In this document: piece after piece, positions 31,766 through 42,546 of the stretch
Numbering within the stretch: the first letter of the stretch is position 1
How the letters are laid out: the number at the start of each line of letters is the position of its first letter
Assembly: GCA_031275945.1 (NCBI GenBank)
Contig: JAISOA010000003.1
Span: 1 to 42,546 of the forward strand
Direction: 5' to 3'
DNA length: 42,546 nucleotides
From: Spirochaetaceae bacterium
GTDB taxonomy: Bacteria; Spirochaetota; Spirochaetia; Treponematales; Breznakiellaceae
Notes under the pieces: generated by a model
What the model was told of the DNA's origin: nothing
The model's input: only the letters and a program-made list of their open reading frames with translations
The model's database searches: none
Made by a program: the position numbers and the translations under genes

Positions 31766-32413
31766 TTAGCGATTTTTCCCCAGGGGCCTTCCTAAAAGCA
31801 GTTCCGCCTCATGGTAGCGTCCGGCCCGGAGGGCAGCCCGGATCCTGCTTGAGCTTACCGGGATTCCCCCCTCTACTACGGGTTTAACGATTTCGGCGCT
31901 AATCCCCATTCCCTCCGCCAGGACTTTAAAGCGCAAAGCATCGGTATCCTGGCGGTATCCGCAGTGGAAATTAGCCCCTACCGCTATATATGCGGGATCC
32001 AAATAACGGTACAGGGCCTCTATAAAACTTCCACCATCTATTTTACTGAAATTTTCCGAAAAGTCAATGATCACGCAGAAGGCCACTCCCGATTGGCTTA
32101 GCAGGGTCATTTTTTCGTCAAAGCCTATGATGTCCTCAAAGGGATTATCCGCCGAGGAAGGGCCTGCAAAGTCCGGAGAATCTGCGGGCTGTGCTTCCTG
32201 CCGGAGAAAGGAATATTTTTTTGGATTTTCCCGGAAGGTAACCACCCCGGGAAGGAGCGCCGGGGCTTTTTCGACTATTTTGGTAATTAAAACCCGGTGG
32301 CCCCGGTGAAAACCGTCGAACACTCCTATGGTAAGGGCGGTTTTGCGGTCCCCTCCCCGGGTTTGCCATAGGCCCCTTTCCAACTCCTCCCAGTTAATCT
32401 TGTACATTGACAT
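31766..32413 (-). CDS. ribF: FAD synthetase domain protein, RibF-like without riboflavin kinase part
   Basis: This is about 215 residues. IGVFDGFHRGHR, near residue 30, is the nucleotidyltransferase signature, and ISSSRIR-type GIPVSSSRIRAALRAG marks the second conserved block. Bacterial RibF is usually near 310 residues with a C-terminal riboflavin kinase barrel; here the protein stops after the adenylyltransferase part. It should make FAD from FMN and ATP, while FMN would have to come from another kinase. Two start ATGs (32413, 32407) lie inside the 3' end of truB, so the overlap is about 14-20 bases. Confidence 0.85.
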   Translation of the reverse strand: MSMYKINWEELERGLWQTRGGDRKTALTIGVFDGFHRGHRVLITKIVEKAPALLPGVVTFRENPKKYSFLRQEAQPADSPDFAGPSSADNPFEDIIGFDEKMTLLSQSGVAFCVIIDFSENFSKIDGGSFIEALYRYLDPAYIAVGANFHCGYRQDTDALRFKVLAEGMGISAEIVKPVVEGGIPVSSSRIRAALRAGRYHEAELLLGRPLGKNR

Positions 32414-33272
32414 ACCTGTATTTCCAGTCTTTTTCTGTTTTCGCAACCAGGGCCGCAAAAAAACCGGGACCGAAAATGGCTAGGGTATCCGTATCCTGGG
32501 GAAAAGAAAGCTGCCTAAGGGATCCCAGGGCCTTGCCCCGGCATAGGGCCAGGGCTGTTTCTTTGTCCACGGATAAGGTACATATACCCAGGGCGCTAAA
32601 CAAACCGGGATCAAGGGGTTGTAAGGCATCCCTAATGCTCTGCAGGTCCGCATCGGAAGGAACCGCCCCTTCCACAGAAAAATTACCTACCTTGGTCCTG
32701 GTAAGGGAAACAAGGTGGGCCCTGGAGCAAAGGGCCAGGGCTATATCCCGGGCCAGGGAACGAATATACGTACCCTTTGAACAGTGAATTTCCAATTCCC
32801 CCAGGGGAGGATCCCAGGAACACAGACGAAGACTATAAACCGTCACGGGTCTTTGCGCCATTTCCACCTGAACGCCCGACCGGGCAAGCCGGTGGGCCCG
32901 TTGTCCGGCAATATGGACTGCGGAATAAAGCGGCGGCGACTGGAGTATTGGGCCCGTAAACCGGGGAAGGATCTCTTCCAGTGCCTGCCGGGAAGGAACC
33001 GGAGCCCGGGCAAGGATCTCCCCCTCCGGGTCCAGGGTATCCGTTTCTTCCCCGAATTTAACACAGGCCAGGTAGCGCTTATCACAGGTGGAAAACCATG
33101 ACGCCAGTTTTACCGCCCGGCCAACCAGCACAACCAGGAGTCCCCGGGCAAACTTATCCAGCGTACCGGTATGTCCCACCGTGCGGGTACCAAAGGCTCT
33201 TTTTACCGCTCCCAGGGTTTCAAACGAACTTTGACCGGGATTTTTATTCAACAGAATATAGCCGACCGTCAT
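32394..33272 (-). CDS. truB: tRNA pseudouridine-55 synthase
   Basis: This is 292 residues. VGHTGTLDKFARGLL has the catalytic Asp at D39, although the common form continues GTLDPLATG. The SGVQVEMAQRPVTVYSL and GTYIRSLARDI motifs are typical for the family. It makes pseudouridine in the T-arm of tRNAs. It overlaps rbfA by 29 bases and has a GAGG just before its ATG. The order rbfA-truB-ribF-rpsO is widespread and supports the call. Confidence 0.95.
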   Translation of the reverse strand: MTVGYILLNKNPGQSSFETLGAVKRAFGTRTVGHTGTLDKFARGLLVVLVGRAVKLASWFSTCDKRYLACVKFGEETDTLDPEGEILARAPVPSRQALEEILPRFTGPILQSPPLYSAVHIAGQRAHRLARSGVQVEMAQRPVTVYSLRLCSWDPPLGELEIHCSKGTYIRSLARDIALALCSRAHLVSLTRTKVGNFSVEGAVPSDADLQSIRDALQPLDPGLFSALGICTLSVDKETALALCRGKALGSLRQLSFPQDTDTLAIFGPGFFAALVAKTEKDWKYRYVNVQD

Positions 33273-33640: not shown

Positions 33641-36076
33641 TTAACCGGTAAGTTTCCGGGCTATTTCAACAATCTCAAATACTTCTATTTGATCCCCTAC
33701 CCGTACATCATCGTAATCTTCAATACCCAGACCGCATTCAAAGCCCGCGGCTACTTCCCGGGCATCGTCTTTGAACCGCTTAAGGCTGCCAATCTTTCCC
33801 GTATGGACCACAATCCCTTCCCGGATAAGATTAACACGGGCGTTACGTTTAACAGTACCGCTAAGCACATAGCATCCTGCAATGGTACCAATTTTGGGCA
33901 CCTTGAAGGTGTTCCGTACTTCCACAGTGGCCACAAGCTCTTCCTTGGTATCGGGCTTTAACATTCCCTCCAGGGCCTGTTGAATTTCTTCCACGGCCTT
34001 GTATATGACATTGTACTTGCGCACGTCAACCCGTTCCTGATCCGCCAGGGCCTTTGCCTTTGGAGTGGGCCTAACATTAAAACCCAGGATGATGGCGTTG
34101 GATGCGCTGGCCAAATCTATGTCCCCTTCGTTAATTGCCCCCGGTAGGGCCTGTATTACATGGACCCGGACTTCATTATTGGAAAGTTTTTCCAGACTGG
34201 AGCGGAGCGCCTCGGCGGAACCTTGAACGTCCGCTTTAATGATCACCTTAAGTTCCTGGATCGCCCCATCGCTGATCGTTTCATGAAGGTTGTCCAGGGT
34301 GATCTTTTTAATATTTTTGGAATCTTCAAAACGTTTTAATTCCTGGCGTTTGGAAGAAACGCCCCGGGCTACCCGTTCATCTTCCACCACCTGCAGAGGA
34401 TCCCCCGCATTCGGTATGCCCTCGAAGCCCAGGACTTCCACCGGCATGGAGGGACTGGCGGTTTCAACCTTTTCCCCCTTGTCGTTAAAAAGAGCCCGGA
34501 CCTTTCCGGGCCAGATCCCCGCCACAAAGGAGTCGCCGATTTTTAAGGTTCCCTTTTCGATGATCACCGTGGCCACAATACCCCGGCCATGATCTATTCG
34601 GGATTCCAGCACCTTGCCCTCGGCGTTGCGCCGGTAATTTGCCTTCAAGTCCAGGATTTCCGATTCCAGTAATATGGCATCGATAAGCTTATCTATACCC
34701 TCTTTCTTTAGGGCGGAAAGTTCCACAAACATGGTCTGTCCGCCCCAGGCTTCGGGTATAAGTCCCAGTTCGGAAAGCTGGTTTTTAACCCTATCTGGAT
34801 TTGCCTCGGGTTTATCGATCTTGTTAACCGCCACAATGATCGGCACCGCCGCTTCTTTGGCATGATTTATGGCCTCTACGGTTTGGGGCATAACCCCGTC
34901 GTCGGCGGCCACCACCAGAATGACAATATCAGTAACCTGGGCGCCCCGGGCCCGCATGCGGGTAAAAGCTTCGTGGCCGGGGGTGTCCAGGAAGGCAATT
35001 TTACCGTGGGCGGTATCTACCATATAAGCGCCGATATGCTGGGTTATGCCGCCGAATTCCCCCGAGGCCACGTCGGAGCTGCGGATCGCATCCAGTAGTT
35101 TGGTTTTACCATGATCAACATGTCCCATGACGGTAACCACCGGTGGCCTGGGTTCCATGGTGGACAGGTCATCGGTACCGCTGTCAATTACCGTTTCGTC
35201 ATAGAGGCTTACGATGTTTACCTCAGCGCCGAATTCGGCGGCCAGGATCGAAGCGGTTTCCGCATCTATTTGCTGATTGATGGTTACCATCATTCCCATG
35301 CTCATGAGTTTTTGAATAAGATCCGACACCTTTAGGTTCATTTTCCGGGCCAGTTCCGAAACGGAAATAACTTCCATAATATCTATTGATTTAGGAACAG
35401 GATTGGCAAGATGGGTGATCTTTTTCTTGGTTTGAAGGAGTTTTTCCTCCATCTCTTGTTCTTTTTTTTGATAAACCGTTTTTTTTGCTTTAAAGAATTT
35501 TTTTACGGGCCCCTTGCCGCCTTCGATCGTCGGATCCGCAGTCCCCGATCCAAAGCCGGGTTTATTGCCCCCGGGCCTGCCACCTCGAAGGATAAAGCCG
35601 CCGTTTTGCCGGGGTGGAGCGCCGGTTCTTTGCGGCTGGGATTTTCCTACGGAAGGCCGTCCGCCGCCGAAGGGAGGCCTTTCGCCGCCCCTTCCAACCG
35701 GGCGGCCCCCTACCCTGCCGGCGGCCCCGGCGGGGCGCTGGAGAAAAGAAACGTTTCCAACCGGGCGGCCCCCTACCCTGCCAGCGGCCCCGGCGGGGCG
35801 TTGGGGGGTGGACAGCGTCTGCGGCGGTTTCGGTTCTTCTTTTTTTTGTTCAGTTGAAGGCGCTTCGGGGATCTTGGCCTTTGGTTCTGTCTGAACCGGC
35901 ACAACCCTGGGCTGGAGGGTTTTCTTTACCGTCCCTGCGGAAATGGGAACTTTCTTCTTAACCACCACCACCTTGCGGCGTTCCCCCTGTTCGATCTTGG
36001 GCACAGGTTCTTCGCTCTTGGCATGCTTAATAAGTTCAACCTTGGGTTTCTGCGCATTATCTAGTTCGTCAGTCAT
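33641..36076 (-). CDS. infB: Translation initiation factor IF-2
   Basis: This is 811 residues. The first 200 are basic and Gly/Pro/Arg-rich with a tandem unit [15 protein letters not shown] twice; the IF2-N-type domain ([20 protein letters not shown] region, ~ 235-285; quoted as fragment) precedes a GTPase with GHVDHGKT (G1), DTPGHEAF (G3), NKID (G4) and SALKKEG (G5), and the C-terminal domains that bind initiator tRNA. It brings fMet-tRNA to the 30S subunit. The ATG follows AGGTGG and the nusA stop by 11 bases. The repeated N-terminal region is variable in the family. Confidence 0.97.
35692..35804 (-). repeat. Two near-identical 50-bp repeats inside infB
   Basis: Copies at 35692-35741 and 35755-35804 differ at two positions by hand comparison and lie 63 bases (21 codons) apart. 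Both encode the same 15- to 16-residue Gly/Arg/Pro unit in the N-terminal part of IF-2. The multiple-of-three period keeps the frame, so recombination between copies could change the number of units without harm. Confidence 0.85.
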
Positions 36077-36087
36077 ATTCCACCTTG

Positions 36088-37563
36088 TTATTCTTCGTAC
36101 TCAAAGCTTAGGCCTATTCCGCAATTAGGGCAATTGGTCATATCCACGGTAATCCGGGCTCCACATTCGGGACATTCGTATTCTTCCGGCGCCTCTTCCT
36201 CTTCGGAAGTTTCAAAGCTTTCTTTTGCCGTTTCGTCTTCTTCCACATCCCCTGTTTCTTCGGGGGCTTCCTCATTCTCCACTATTTCCACATATTCTTC
36301 TATAAGCCTGCGAAGTTCTTCTATCTGGGCTACGTTAACTTCTTTTAAATCGGATATTTCGGTTTCAGAAAGGGAAAGGAAGTCTTCGATAAATTCAATA
36401 TTGTTTTTGAGCAGTCCCTCCGCAGTTTCCTTTGAAATCCCCGGCAGTTCGGAAATCTTCGATATTTCTTCCGAATCGCCGAAAAGTTCGGATACCGCCC
36501 GGCGGGATTCGGAGGCAATATCCATTTCCGCAAACTGAGCCTCGGTCTTTACGTCGATATTCCAGTCCACCAGCCGGTTGGCAAGCCGGACATTAAGGCC
36601 CTGCTTGCCTATGGCCAGGGAAAGCTGGGAATCCGCCACCACCGCCAGGGCCTGGTGTTTACCTTCGTCAAGGATAATTACATCCCGCACCTCCGCAGGG
36701 GAAAGGGCGTTTTTAATAAACCGTTTTGCATCCGGATCAAACTTTAAAATATCAACCTTCTCCCCCTCCAATTCGCGGATAACCGCCTGTATACGTACCC
36801 CCTTAAGGCCCACGCATGCTCCGACGGGGTCCACGTCGTCCCGGTTGGAATACACCGCCAGTTTAGTACGGTATCCCGCCTCCCGGACTATTTTGTGGAT
36901 CTCCACGGTCTTATCGTAGACCTCCGGTACCTCCAGTTCAAAAATAGCCCGGACAAAGTCTGTATGGGTTCTGGAAAGTACCACCTGAAGCCCCGCGGGG
37001 GTTTTATTAACCTCGGTAATAAGGGCTTTAATCCGGTCATTCACGTGGTAAATTTCCCGGGGAGATTGGTATTTTTTAGGCAATATCCCCTCCACCTTAC
37101 CCAGGTCAACATAGATGGTTCCGTTCCGTTCCCGCTGGTAGTAGCCGATAATTATCTCCCCTACCTTGTCTTTAAATTCCGAATACAAGCTGTCTTTTTG
37201 GATTTCCCGTATGGACTGGTGGGCCGTCTGCTTGGCACTCTGGATAGCAATGCGATCAAATTCCTTGGGATCCACCTCAATTAAAAGGTCGTCCCCCAGT
37301 TCCGCATCGGGGTTCAATTCCTTGGCTTCTTCCAAGTCGATTTCCGCCACCGGATCGTATACGCCGTCTACGATTTTTTTCTGCGCATAAATTGAAACCA
37401 TCCTGTTATCGCTGTTAAACCGTACTATGGCATTATCCGCATTCCCGAAACGGCGCTTATATGCCGCAAGCAGGGTGTTTTCGATGGTTTTAAGGATCAG
37501 TTCTTCCGAAATGCCCCTGTCATGAATAAGCTGATGGATTGCTTCCGACATATCCGTTGCCAC
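36088..37563 (-). CDS. nusA: Transcription termination/antitermination factor NusA with zinc ribbon
   Basis: This is 491 residues. The N-terminal RNA-polymerase-binding domain (about 1-130), S1 domain (about 135-200) and two KH domains (about 205-350, with DPVGACVGLKGVRIQAV) are standard. After helix-hairpin-helix-like residues (about 360-420) comes an acidic stretch and then CPEC and CPNC (C464, C467, C478, C481), a zinc ribbon absent from the textbook NusA. It binds RNA polymerase and acts in pausing and termination. GTG 37563 is the start, with AGGAGGT seven bases upstream. Confidence 0.94.
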   Translation of the reverse strand: MATDMSEAIHQLIHDRGISEELILKTIENTLLAAYKRRFGNADNAIVRFNSDNRMVSIYAQKKIVDGVYDPVAEIDLEEAKELNPDAELGDDLLIEVDPKEFDRIAIQSAKQTAHQSIREIQKDSLYSEFKDKVGEIIIGYYQRERNGTIYVDLGKVEGILPKKYQSPREIYHVNDRIKALITEVNKTPAGLQVVLSRTHTDFVRAIFELEVPEVYDKTVEIHKIVREAGYRTKLAVYSNRDDVDPVGACVGLKGVRIQAVIRELEGEKVDILKFDPDAKRFIKNALSPAEVRDVIILDEGKHQALAVVADSQLSLAIGKQGLNVRLANRLVDWNIDVKTEAQFAEMDIASESRRAVSELFGDSEEISKISELPGISKETAEGLLKNNIEFIEDFLSLSETEISDLKEVNVAQIEELRRLIEEYVEIVENEEAPEETGDVEEDETAKESFETSEEEEAPEEYECPECGARITVDMTNCPNCGIGLSFEYEE

Positions 37564-37696: not shown

Positions 37697-38206
37697 TTAG
37701 GCGTTTTCGATTGAATCATCCAGCCTCGCTTTGGCAATTAGTTCATAGGGCAGTTCTATCCGTTCCTGTTGTGAAGAAGACACCCCGTCTTCGGTTTCAA
37801 GAAGGATCTTTTCCGTATCCGAAAAGCGAAGTATGCCCCGCTGCCATTGTGCCGTATCGGTCCGGTAAATACGAATCCTCCTGTCCACATAATGGCGAAA
37901 TTCCGCCCCCTCTTTAACCAGTCTGTCCGTACCGGGGGAAGAAAGTTCCACATGGAGATCCCCGTCGGGAAAAGCGGCTTCCAGCCTGGGCAGTATGGCC
38001 CGGTGCGCCCCCGCCAGTTCCCCGGTGCCAAAAGACCCGGCGGTCCCCGGTTTGGTAAGCACAAGCCGTACCTGGACAGCCCCCCTTTTGCCCGCATGGA
38101 ACAGGTTTAGTTCCACCGGAACAAATCCAAGTCCCTGAAGGACCGGTTCCAGGTCCTCCCTCAGGGAAGCGGTTTCTCTGTCCTCGTTTTTGGCCCTATA
38201 CCGCAT
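37697..38206 (-). CDS. rimP: Ribosome maturation factor RimP
   Basis: This is about 169 residues from ATG 38206 (a start at 38278 would add 24 Gly/Arg-rich residues with no family support and lie in the leader). The ELSSPGTDR motif, the DDSIENA end and the N-terminal helix with LEPVLQGLGFVPVELNL fit RimP, which is needed to mature the 30S subunit. It is the first gene of the operon with nusA-infB-rbfA-truB, the classical order. Confidence 0.92.
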   Translation of the reverse strand: MRYRAKNEDRETASLREDLEPVLQGLGFVPVELNLFHAGKRGAVQVRLVLTKPGTAGSFGTGELAGAHRAILPRLEAAFPDGDLHVELSSPGTDRLVKEGAEFRHYVDRRIRIYRTDTAQWQRGILRFSDTEKILLETEDGVSSSQQERIELPYELIAKARLDDSIENA

Positions 38207-38296
38207 CCGGCTAAATCCTACCGGGAACCCGCAGCCCGGAATGGCCTGCCCCCGCCGGCCCGCATAACCGTCAGGCACATGCGGCGGTTTTTCTAT

Positions 38297-38326
38297 AAAA
38301 AAGGGGTCGTCTAAGCGGCCCCTTTT
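38297..38326 (-). terminator. Intrinsic-terminator-like hairpin in the rimP leader, candidate attenuator
   Basis: On the minus strand AAAAGGGG (38326-38319) pairs with CCCCTTTT (38306-38299), inner loop about 12 bases, and the T-run continues to 38297. It lies just after the predicted rimP promoter and about 90 bases before the rimP ATG. So it would stop transcription of the whole operon unless overcome. GTCTAA upstream is complementary to TTAGAC in the loop, so an alternative contact is possible. Confidence 0.6.
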
Positions 38327-38348
38327 CCGATGTTAGACTGTCTAGGGC

Positions 38349-38377
38349 ACTATACAACAGGATTTTTTTTTTGTCAA
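38349..38377 (-). promoter_or_regulatory. Consensus sigma70 promoter for the rimP-nusA-infB operon
   Basis: On the minus strand TTGACA (38377-38372) and TATAGT (38354-38349) are 17 bases apart; the spacer begins with a run of A. This is the best promoter in the window. Transcription should start near 38342, giving a leader of about 135 bases. Confidence 0.78.
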
Positions 38378-38448
38378 GTCACGGGCCCATGCATGTCAAC
38401 GACCGGCAGGTGGAACACTTCTGTCAAGAAAGCAAGTCCGCAGGGCGC

Positions 38449-40323
38449 CTATTTTTCCGTCATGGTCACGGTGGCATCCCAATCCGCCGGGGGAGGATTT
38501 TTGATATACTCAGCAATACGTTCCAGGTACATAGAAGAAAGGTAGTCGGGATTTCCGGTCTTTTCCGCTATGTCCCGGGCCCGGGTAAAGTACTGTCCCG
38601 CAGTTTCCCATTCCCGCATACCGTACAGTTTAAGTCCCTTGTTGTACTGATCCAGTACTTCCCGGTCCAGGATCAGCGCCGGCGGGGTTTCTTCATCATG
38701 TTCTCCGCGGTAGGCGGCATAGACGGCGTAGAGCCCCACGGGCTGGTTTTTTCCCTTAACCCGGACACTGTCGGTCATGCGGAAGATAAACTGATCCTTT
38801 GCCTGCTGGTAGATGTTCTGTGAAACGATAATTGACTGCCTGTAGTATTTTGTTATTCCCTCAAGCCGGGAGGCCAGGTTAACCGTGTCCCCTATGACCG
38901 TATAGTCCAGTTTGTCCTGAAAGCCGATATTGCCCACCACACATTCGCCATAGTTGATCCCCACACCGGCGCCAAAGCCCGATTCCGGCAGGCTAATGCC
39001 CGAGGTGTCCACCTTGGGAAGGGCCTGTACCATCCGCAGGGCCGCCCGGATCGCGCTGGCGCCGGCATTTTCCAGGGTTTTGGGGGCCCCGAAGATGGCC
39101 ATGATCGCATCTCCGATAAACTTGTCGATGTTCCCCCCCTCGCAGACAATTTGGTTTCCCATTAAAGAAAAATATGCGTTAAGAAAATTTACCAGTTCCT
39201 GGGCATTGGTTTTTTCTGAAATTTTGGTAAAATTTCTAATGTCGGAAAAAAGTACCGCCACCACCCTGGTTTCACTCTGACTGGATTGGGCGGAGGATTT
39301 TTTTATAATCTCGTCCATCACGTCTACCGGAACATACCGGGCAAAGGCGGTTCTAGTTTTCTTTTGCAGAATATCCATCTGCCGCAGCCGCAACGCGTTG
39401 GCCACAATGGGAGCGGCGGCGGATAAAAAGATATTTACGTTTTCCATGATTGCCGGAGAAAAATACTCTTTAATTGTATTGCCCACATGAACCGTGGCAA
39501 AATCTTCGCCTGAACTTTTAAGGGGGATCATGATATACGATTCTATTTTTTTGTTTTTTTCTCCCGGAGGAAAGAAATCTTTTAGTTCCCGGGACACAAC
39601 CTGGTAATCGGGAAAAAGGGTGTTAAAATCCGCGATTGCCACGGCTTTAAAATCTTCGGCGATTTCTTCGGCATATCCGGATCTGTTTGCGTTGTACACC
39701 ACCAGGGAATTATCCGTATCTTTAATCATGATGGAAGCAATTTCCGCTTCGCATATATTCGGTAAAAGATCAAACATACCCTTGACTATTTCTTCCAGGG
39801 AACTAAGCTTGCCGGACAATTCCGCCAAAAGTCCTATAATGGTGGTTTGAAAGAGCTTATTGTCCAAAAGGTTATTTACCATTTCTACCAGAGAATTGTC
39901 GTTTATCCGTTTTCCTTCTTTTTGGATAAGGCCGTAATCCACCGGGGCAGAAAGGGCCAAAAATTCTTCTATCCGGGTTTTAAGTTCCGCAAAATTTTCC
40001 GGTGATTTTTCGATATAGAAATCCGCCCCCGCCTGGCCGCCCCAGAATTTGTCCTTTCGTTCCCCCAGGGAGGTAAACATGATAACCGGAATGGACCGTG
40101 TCGAGGGCCGGGATTTAAGGAGTCGCGTTGCCTGGTATCCTTTAAAAAGGGGCATTTCCACATCCGTTACGATAAGCTGGGGCAGAAAGGAATAAACCAT
40201 CTTAATTCCCTCCAGGCCGTTTATGGCCCTGGCCGTTTCGTAACCTTCGCCGATAAGGAATTCCGTCAACATGTCGGAAAAAATGTCCGAATCCTCAAAA
40301 ACCAGGATCTTTTTTTTATCCAT
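38449..40323 (-). CDS. Response regulator with GAF domain and class III adenylate cyclase
   Basis: This is 624 residues. An N-terminal REC domain (phospho-acceptor D54 in IVTDVEMP; conserved Lys in IEKSPEN) is followed by a GAF-like domain (about 165-315) and a class III cyclase (about 340-520). FSDIRNF and GDAIMAIFG carry the two metal Asp residues; DKFIGD has the adenine-binding Lys, and DYTVIGDTVNLASRLEG has Thr, Asn and Arg positions as in bacterial adenylate cyclases, so cAMP is the expected product. A TPR-like end follows. ATG 40323 has GGAG six bases upstream and overlaps cheA by eight bases, so the adjacent kinase is the obvious phospho-donor. Confidence 0.9.
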   Translation of the reverse strand: MDKKKILVFEDSDIFSDMLTEFLIGEGYETARAINGLEGIKMVYSFLPQLIVTDVEMPLFKGYQATRLLKSRPSTRSIPVIMFTSLGERKDKFWGGQAGADFYIEKSPENFAELKTRIEEFLALSAPVDYGLIQKEGKRINDNSLVEMVNNLLDNKLFQTTIIGLLAELSGKLSSLEEIVKGMFDLLPNICEAEIASIMIKDTDNSLVVYNANRSGYAEEIAEDFKAVAIADFNTLFPDYQVVSRELKDFFPPGEKNKKIESYIMIPLKSSGEDFATVHVGNTIKEYFSPAIMENVNIFLSAAAPIVANALRLRQMDILQKKTRTAFARYVPVDVMDEIIKKSSAQSSQSETRVVAVLFSDIRNFTKISEKTNAQELVNFLNAYFSLMGNQIVCEGGNIDKFIGDAIMAIFGAPKTLENAGASAIRAALRMVQALPKVDTSGISLPESGFGAGVGINYGECVVGNIGFQDKLDYTVIGDTVNLASRLEGITKYYRQSIIVSQNIYQQAKDQFIFRMTDSVRVKGKNQPVGLYAVYAAYRGEHDEETPPALILDREVLDQYNKGLKLYGMREWETAGQYFTRARDIAEKTGNPDYLSSMYLERIAEYIKNPPPADWDATVTMTEK

Positions 40324-42546
40324 GTGCTTCTCCAATTAATTCCTTAACGGCGCTGATTAAATTATGGTTGTTGAACGAGTTCTTTACAATATACCGGTTT
40401 GCCCCAAGCATCGCAGCCCGTTTTTGATCATCGTCGTTGGTCCGGGATGAAATAACAATAACCGGAATATCTTTTAAGTTGTCGTTCTTGCGGATATTTT
40501 CCGTGAGTAAAAATCCATCCATGTTGGGCATGGCAAGGTCGGTACAGATTAGGTCGTACCGGCTGTTTTTCGCCGCCCTCAGGGCTTCGGAACCGTCGGC
40601 AGCCGTATCCACCTTGTATCCCTCGGCTTGCAGTATATCCCGTACAATCTCCCGGGTTGGCCGGGAATCGTCCACCACAAGAACGGATTTGCGCAGCCGT
40701 TCGTAGTCGACGTGGCGTTTTTTAAGATCGATGGTTTTGGTGCGCCGGGCCATTTTAATCAGGGTAGGCACATGCAGGGCCGGGATCATTTCGTAATCCT
40801 CGCTAAGGACAATGCCGGAAAAAATCGGAATCGTTTCCATAAACGAAGGCATATTTTTTAAGATCACCGACCGCATACTGCTGATACCGCTTACCGCCAG
40901 GGCTATGGTTTCTTCATAGGCGTGGATGATCACCACAAACACCGGGCCTTCTTCCTGTTTTTTCCGGTTCGAGGTAATTTTTAGGATCTGGTAAAGGTAG
41001 TAGAGCTTTATAACCCGGCCCTGGTATTGTATCCCCGGCCTGTCAACCACGGTGATAATTTCCTCGTTTTTAAGTAACAGGATCGTGTCCACAAAATTCG
41101 CGGGGATAATAAAATTCATGCCCCCGGAAGAAATCGGAAACCCCATTAAGGAGGCCATGGACAGGGGAACCGAAATGGTAAAAACCGTTCCCTCCCCCTG
41201 GGTGCTTTGCACGGTGATGCTTCCCTTCATTCGCTCGATATTGTTTTTTACCGCGTCCATTCCCACTCCCCGGCCGGAAACACTGGAAAGTTTTTCCGCG
41301 GTAGAAAATCCGCTTTGAAAGATAAAGTTAATAAGCTCATCTTGATCCAGCGCGGCGGCGCTTTCTCTGGATACCAGTCCCCGGTCAACGATCTTTTTGC
41401 GGATCCCCTCTGTGTTAATACCCCGGCCATCGTCGGTAATGGTAACTTTCATATTCCCGCTTTCCCGGACACAGCGGATATGCAGAAGCCCCGTTTCGCT
41501 TTTGCCCCTTTCCCGCCGTTCCGCCGGGGCCTCTATGCCGTGATCTATGGAATTACGGATCATGTGAAGAAACACTTCGGAAAGGGATTCTATAAGGTTC
41601 TTGTCGATTTCGTTTTCCGCCCCCTCTATACGGATCTGTACCTGTTTTCCCAGTTCCGAGGCAATGGTAAATACATACCGGGGATATGCGTCTAAGACCG
41701 TGGAAAGAGGAAGCATCCGCAGGGCTATGACGCTGTCAAAGGCGTTTCTGGTGTGGTTTCCCACGTCAATGGCATAGTTTTTTACCGCGGAACCCAGTTT
41801 GTTTATCAGGGTTTCCAGAGTCCTAAATTCCTGAAACGCCGGGGAGTTGTAGGAGTCTTCGGCGCCGGCAAGCCGGGAATACTGCCGGGTTAATTCCTGG
41901 ATCGTCCCGGTGTTCCGGACTATGTTTTTAGCGGCTATTTCCAGGGACTGCAGGGCCGCCATGGTTTTTATAATTTCATTGATCCGGTCCAGGGATATGC
42001 GGATACTTTCGGATCTTGCCTCTTCCAGTTTATTCCGTTTTGATTCCCCCGGGGAAGAGGCGGCGGATGTTAGCCCTTTTGTACCGGCGGCTTCCACCCT
42101 GCTTCCCGAAACCTCAGTTTCGGAAGCCGAGGTTTCCCCCTTGTTTCCGGAAATCGCAGCTTCCCCAAAAGACTCGGCCGTCGCCGGGGATTCCGAAGCT
42201 TCGCCGTTTTCCCTTACCCGGTTTATCCTGGGGATGGAAAAATCTTCGTTCGCCGCTAAGGATTCCAGTTCTTTTTGAAAAAGCGCCGCCTCTACGTCAT
42301 CCTCCCCTCCGGCCCGTATCATACGGAGGGCCGCCTTAAGCTCGTCCAAACCCGCCAGTATAAGCCTCACGGCCCTGTCGCTAAGGGATATCCGTTCGTC
42401 TTTTAGGGCCGCAAAGACCCCTTCCATGGCATGGGAAAGGGTCTCAATGTTCTTAAATTCCAGCATCCGGGAAGAACGCTTTAGGGTATGCAGGGCTCGC
42501 ATCAACGTTACCAAGCCGTCCTGGACGGCAAGGCCGTCTTTTATTT
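40316..42546 (-). CDS. CheA-type hybrid histidine kinase, N-terminus outside window
   Basis: The frame stays open to the window edge, so the gene starts beyond 42546; the TTG at 42514 is only an internal codon. Visible parts: an HPt-like stretch with ALHTLKRSSRM (His codon at 42488-42490), a low-complexity linker, the dimerisation helices (ISLDRINEIIKTMAALQSL), a HATPase with HMIRNSIDHGIE, DDGRGIN and GRGVGMDAV, a CheW-like domain and a C-terminal REC with DLAMPNMDG. Fused REC and CheW parts mark a non-motility or specialised chemosensory kinase. It lies just upstream of the REC-GAF-cyclase, its likely target. No chemoreceptor is in the window. Confidence 0.9.
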   Translation of the reverse strand, partial: IKDGLAVQDGLVTLMRALHTLKRSSRMLEFKNIETLSHAMEGVFAALKDERISLSDRAVRLILAGLDELKAALRMIRAGGEDDVEAALFQKELESLAANEDFSIPRINRVRENGEASESPATAESFGEAAISGNKGETSASETEVSGSRVEAAGTKGLTSAASSPGESKRNKLEEARSESIRISLDRINEIIKTMAALQSLEIAAKNIVRNTGTIQELTRQYSRLAGAEDSYNSPAFQEFRTLETLINKLGSAVKNYAIDVGNHTRNAFDSVIALRMLPLSTVLDAYPRYVFTIASELGKQVQIRIEGAENEIDKNLIESLSEVFLHMIRNSIDHGIEAPAERRERGKSETGLLHIRCVRESGNMKVTITDDGRGINTEGIRKKIVDRGLVSRESAAALDQDELINFIFQSGFSTAEKLSSVSGRGVGMDAVKNNIERMKGSITVQSTQGEGTVFTISVPLSMASLMGFPISSGGMNFIIPANFVDTILLLKNEEIITVVDRPGIQYQGRVIKLYYLYQILKITSNRKKQEEGPVFVVIIHAYEETIALAVSGISSMRSVILKNMPSFMETIPIFSGIVLSEDYEMIPALHVPTLIKMARRTKTIDLKKRHVDYERLRKSVLVVDDSRPTREIVRDILQAEGYKVDTAADGSEALRAAKNSRYDLICTDLAMPNMDGFLLTENIRKNDNLKDIPVIVISSRTNDDDQKRAAMLGANRYIVKNSFNNHNLISAVKELIGEAHG

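Follow-up and report, generated by a model that had tools for sequence, protein, structure and literature searches.

The rimP-nusA-infB operon of this Spirochaetaceae bacterium is headed by what is very likely a transcription attenuator, a promoter-proximal leader with a terminator hairpin in front of rimP. In the preferred reading, to which we give a probability of about 0.6, it is most likely the NusA level that sets the balance between termination and readthrough, which would amount to negative feedback. Taken by itself, NusA as the controller of the leader is proposed by analogy and stands at about even odds. We infer termination in vivo, the switching between two folds and the part of NusA as the factor. 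Much of the spirochaete class has the same arrangement, and the leader is thus probably a feedback valve, the spirochaete form of a regulator known in other bacteria.

The window (the whole stretch of 42,546 nucleotides that was analysed) carries the element on its minus strand, flanked by rimP and by the gene for a two-component response regulator (38449-40335). The rimP gene (37697-38206, minus strand), encoding a ribosome maturation factor, is the first of the operon and was recognised by RimP models, the best of them NF011230 (E 5e-27, below the model cut-off). Its ATG lies at 38206, with a putative ribosome-binding site, AGGA, at 38216-38219 on the same strand. The operon runs rimP-nusA-infB-rbfA-truB-ribF-rpsO-pnp. 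The second gene, nusA (36088-37563, minus strand; TIGR01953, E 4.5e-124), is the candidate source of the feedback signal, and infB (33641-36076, minus strand; TIGR00487, E 3e-258) encodes translation initiation factor IF-2. The ribF product (31766-32458, minus strand) has 230 amino acids and aligns with just the first ~180 of the ~300 positions of the RibF model, so that its riboflavin-kinase half seems to be missing. No tRNA, such as E. coli metY, was found in the leader stretch.

A TTGACA-17-TATAGT promoter followed by a hairpin before rimP had been described in the initial annotation, and it is confirmed. This sigma-70-type promoter (38349-38377, minus strand) agrees with the consensus at 11 of 12 positions, with the -35 TTGACA at 38377-38372, a 17-nt spacer and the -10 TATAGT at 38354-38349. 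Among 125 family members with the element, 123 have the exact TTGACA and 115 the 17-nt spacer. Behind the -10, the minus strand reads GCCCTA-GACAGTCTAACATC up to the hairpin.

The terminator hairpin, GGAAAAGGGGCCG-CTTAGA-CGACCCCTTTTTT (38297-38328, minus strand), starts 20 nt past the -10 and ends 90 nt ahead of the rimP ATG. Its core stem, AAAAGGGG/CCCCTTTT, pairs 38326-38319 with 38306-38299, and the whole hairpin adds inner CCG/CG.A and outer G-T pairs. A C.A mismatch interrupts the stem, the outer pairs are A-U, and the U-tract is broken (UUUUUUAUA); the tract, TTTTTTATA (38294-38302, minus strand), has its interruption at the distal end. The description of a stem followed by a T-run stands in part: TTTTTT is present, but most of it belongs to the 3' arm itself (AAAA pairs with UUUU) and ATA comes next. 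The hairpin folds at -14.4 kcal/mol (z -2.2); the leader as a whole (38342-38206, 137 nt), whose folding had been suggested, is not unusually stable (z -0.38). Its GC-rich downstream part (38288-38206) folds in an unremarkable way and differs in sequence in G001 and G002. The hairpin was not among the sites listed in a terminator scan of the window. With transcription starting at the seventh base after the -10, the geometry fits an attenuated leader RNA of ~46 nt (38297-38342, minus strand). Between this presumed start and the end of the stem the window leader contains no ATG, GTG or TTG; a leader-peptide attenuator, with its short open reading frame, is therefore ruled out.

For comparison, 400 bases upstream of rimP were taken from 86 genomes belonging to the window's own genus, family or order. 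With relaxed criteria, a promoter and then a hairpin with a T-run occurs in 78 of the 86. A strict rule (TTGAC/TAnnnT promoter with hairpin and T-run within 45 nt), picked post hoc with the data already seen, finds the arrangement upstream of rimP in 72 of 83 relatives compared with 0 of 1660 dinucleotide-shuffled copies, and across the 42.5-kb window it selects a single place, the rimP leader. The T-run follows the hairpin in nearly all genomes. In the family, the distance from -10 to stem varies from 20 to 42 nt and the predicted RNA through the stem end from 43 to 69 nt. The combination of promoter and hairpin is missing ahead of rimP in G069 (L071; 1.14 Mb), and no treponeme genome in the first set is smaller.

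The stem itself is conserved. In 40 family members 90% of the cells are paired, and changes on both sides occur in 26 cells versus 12.3 in shuffles; the covariation score of 0.291 exceeds that of all 500 shuffles, and every slid register scores lower. The lack of a conserved stem in relatives, which had been put forward as evidence that would count against attenuation ahead of the nusA operon, was thus looked for and not found, and stem conservation and covariation, as sequence comparisons, back the attenuation proposal.

A covariance model (R1) was built from 40 family members, and a second (R2) for other families of the order. The covariance search proposed earlier for related spirochaetes was fruitful: R1 matches once in the window's own genome (E 1.4e-8) and hits 150 of 200 family genomes; where there is a second match, it is mostly this hairpin again, read on the opposite strand. 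From the model searches 140 places were then fetched; RimP was detected on the same piece in 127 of them, and some of the others are near contig ends (e.g., L109 and L113). Across the class, matches at E <= 0.01 occur in 61 of 297 genomes, with RimP adjoining the match in 15 of 20 checked. The element has been detected in many Treponema sp. MAGs, in Treponema ruminis and in Candidatus Marispirochaeta associata. Borreliella finlandensis and B. tanukii have the hairpin with a shorter T-run. Several of the MAG contigs nearest to the window are presumably of termite-gut origin.

The leaders of some relatives have features of their own. In Borreliella (L288 and L290), a long AT-rich hairpin, AATAAGGTTCTT-AAAGAACCTTATT, lies ahead of rimP directly after a TTGACA promoter. 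At the order level, leaders of families f2, f4 and f5 (L064, L065, L068, L070 and L119-L148) contain a conserved hairpin, GATTCTCCTTA-GGAA-TAAGAAGAGTC, often GNRA-capped, that overlaps the 5' arm of the terminator. Many leaders of these families have a terminator T-run that reaches almost straight into the rimP start (TTTTTTTATAGGTATG). In family f4 (L121, L123, L128, L129, L133, L138 and L139) the RNA often starts with ATGTAAAAA, an ATG followed immediately by a TAA stop, perhaps as a start-stop element, perhaps by coincidence. Genome G117 has two rimP leaders on separate contigs (L309 on C159 and L185 on C210), perhaps as a result of strain mixture or duplication.

The initial annotation had also noted that GTCTAA and TTAGAC could pair in an alternative fold, and comparative tests in the family support this pairing. 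GTCTAA (38338-38333, minus strand) lies right at the start of the predicted transcript, and its partner TTAGAC (38314-38309, minus strand) consists of the terminator loop and the first base of the 3' arm. When the window RNA was folded stepwise, with the chain lengthened two bases per step, GUCUAA/UUAGAC and an inner helix of CGG (38327-38329) with CCG (38318-38316) were predicted to form first, at 36-40 nt (-8.8 kcal/mol). Past base 40 (at 42 nt) the terminator displaces this antiterminator, reaching -14.4 kcal/mol. Equivalent helices with other letters are found in related genera (GTCTGA/TCAGAC, GTCGATGAT/GTCGTTGAC and TTCGGAAT/GTTCCGAA), and within one genus the pairing occurs as GTCGAAC/GTTCGAC and GTCGGA/TCCGAC.

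In the proposed mechanism, RNA polymerase would start at about 38342, and the first ~10 nt, with GUCUAA, would pair on emergence with the terminator loop and edge (UUAGAC) to give the antiterminator. Once the C-rich 3' arm and the U-tract emerge, the more stable terminator could displace it. Termination would release the ~46-nt RNA ahead of rimP; readthrough would produce the rimP-nusA-infB-rbfA... mRNA. NusA would aid folding of the terminator hairpin and slow the polymerase at the U-tract, so that high NusA would lead to termination and low NusA to readthrough. The strong GC stem could also terminate without NusA.

The signal might be a different one. The same attenuator could respond in trans to NusG, to melting of the hairpin by a cold-shock protein or to RimP itself, or could depend on a choice of start site that trims the antiterminator strand. 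Because that strand lies at the RNA's 5' terminus, moving the start by a few bases would alter it. Cold induces the E. coli operon (PMC6511841), and no result of the present analysis singles out NusA. In the literature compared, however, NusA autoregulation is the sole regulation shown elsewhere for this operon (PMC12288461, and E. coli work as cited in PMC2965389), and a signal other than NusA is considered somewhat unlikely.

Alternatively, the hairpin could be a constitutive, partly efficient terminator that does not switch and holds short RNA and operon mRNA in a fixed proportion. This would suit a full-length terminator ~5.6 kcal/mol more stable than the alternative fold and an antiterminator that is not visible in some genera. 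Comparative tests of the pairing argue against it. In a partner-swap test with one representative for each of 48 genera, the 5' segment was set against the terminator arm and loop; own pairings averaged -7.02 kcal/mol versus -5.51 kcal/mol for swapped ones (sd 0.26, z -5.9). The effect is gone when either strand is reversed (z 0.4 and -0.3). With dinucleotide-shuffled 5' segments, z is -1.7 (sd 0.9; the lowest of 60 was -3.8). Nascent folds have 7.8 pairs between the two parts versus 6.1 in shuffles (Wilcoxon by genus, p 3e-6), although p-values are optimistic here because the genera are related and the samples hence dependent. Loop helices with 6 or more uninterrupted pairs have a frequency of 0.20 with own partners and 0.107 with swapped ones (sd 0.034), and 20 different loop helices occur across 13 genera. 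Better pairing with the own partner and compensated helices would be unexpected were the 5' segment free, and a terminator without switching is judged unlikely.

In family f1 the antiterminator was scored by pairing energies rather than by pair counts in the MAFFT alignment, because loop gaps break the register of the latter. A per-sequence duplex shuffle test gave a modest signal (mean z about -0.9; window rank 0.08). The view that the GTCTAA/TTAGAC fold is unconserved, suggested by letters that vary in relatives, was overturned by the swap, nascent-fold and loop-helix tests. For family f1, these sequence comparisons support an alternative pairing that excludes the terminator and has been kept in evolution; exceptions are the congener G002, where it is weak, and genera g17, g45, g51 and g53, where it is weak or absent. 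There is good reason to regard the antiterminator as real at the level of the family, and it is probably, with less assurance, real in the window genome. In families f2, f4 and f5 a helix, GAUUCUYYUUA-GNRA-UAAGRAGAGUC, is conserved (87% paired). Its covariation is not above that of shuffles and the partner-swap test is null there; among the tests in these families, the nascent-fold test alone (p 5e-5) supports an antiterminator.

The terminated ~46-nt leader could itself be a small RNA acting in trans, given a strong promoter and a short defined product. Its loop and 5' sequence vary among genera while their mutual complementarity is kept, which points to a role in cis and makes this very unlikely. 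That the hairpin merely stabilises the mRNA 5' end or affects translation would agree with its position in families f4 and f5, where it abuts the rimP start region, but is most improbable with a T-run behind nearly every hairpin and 90 nt between hairpin and rimP in the window.

Attenuation under NusA feedback thus stays the preferred reading. In a broader and more tentative form, which we put at slightly less than even chances, spirochaetes as a class would possess an RNA switch of only 45-65 nt. Its antiterminator strand would consist of the first transcript bases and would re-evolve in sequence along with the terminator loop, and the switch would set the supply of NusA and IF2 jointly. A very short two-state leader conserved across spirochaetes would, if true, show a possible tuning of the operon. 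It would also make NusA feedback readily testable in a phylum whose termination is little studied, and would provide a covariance model for a family absent from Rfam.

Several known systems resemble this leader. Rfam RF01770, 'Gammaproteobacteria rimP leader', shares the gene context; at its gathering cut-off of 47 bits it had no match in 10 spirochaete genomes, and it had none at the window locus. Nothing in Rfam matched the leader at gathering or permissive thresholds, and a riboswitch, T-box or other Rfam cis-element was rejected on that basis. Several Bacilli rimP leaders (e.g., L303 and L307) have in the same upstream region a hairpin of a different type, AGAGTGGG-gaaa-CCCACTCT. In B. subtilis, NusA is autoregulated through NusA-stimulated termination in its own leader (reviewed in PMC12288461). 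As there, an intrinsic terminator lies in the 5' leader of an operon that includes nusA; unlike there, where NusA dependence has been demonstrated, it is proposed for the window by analogy. Consecutive terminal A-U or G-U pairs and distal U-tract interruptions mark Nus-dependent terminators in B. subtilis (PMC8060035), and the window terminator is similar in its terminal A-U pairs and distal U-tract break. NusA also represses the E. coli operon (via PMC6511841 and PMC2965389). In the S. agalactiae rimP operon (gbs0413-0418), according to the portion of PMC4448216 compared, transcription ends 31 nt past the start. A rimP-nusA-infB operon is common to both systems, as would be a short and a long transcript from one start; termination was mapped by RNA-seq in S. 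agalactiae and is predicted from sequence in the window, and an antiterminator is not described in that portion.

The closest relative is the rimP-leader, the most ubiquitous attenuator according to Naville and Gautheret 2010 (PMC2965389), with a GGGc...gCCC stem and NusA as its likely regulator; spirochaetes are not named in the main text. The window shares its terminator hairpin with G-rich 5' arm, C-rich 3' arm and T-stretch before rimP-nusA-infB, and its 90-nt distance to the gene is within the published 4-130 nt. The motif in the window is GGGGCCG...CGACCCC, with the 5' half present and an A replacing the g that precedes CCC; GGGCCG or GGGUCG...CGGCCC is found in many members of the family, and the f2, f4 and f5 stems differ, with GAGUCG...CGACUC. 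The window is best read as a member of the rimP-leader family, which it fits by position, hairpin and T-run and half-fits by motif. For this most ubiquitous attenuator, PMC2965389 reports an antiterminator as visible only in some Gammaproteobacteria, yet the spirochaete form has a predicted and comparatively supported one. What appears to be new is this spirochaete form, in which the antiterminator is short, varies in sequence and occupies the very 5' end of the RNA.
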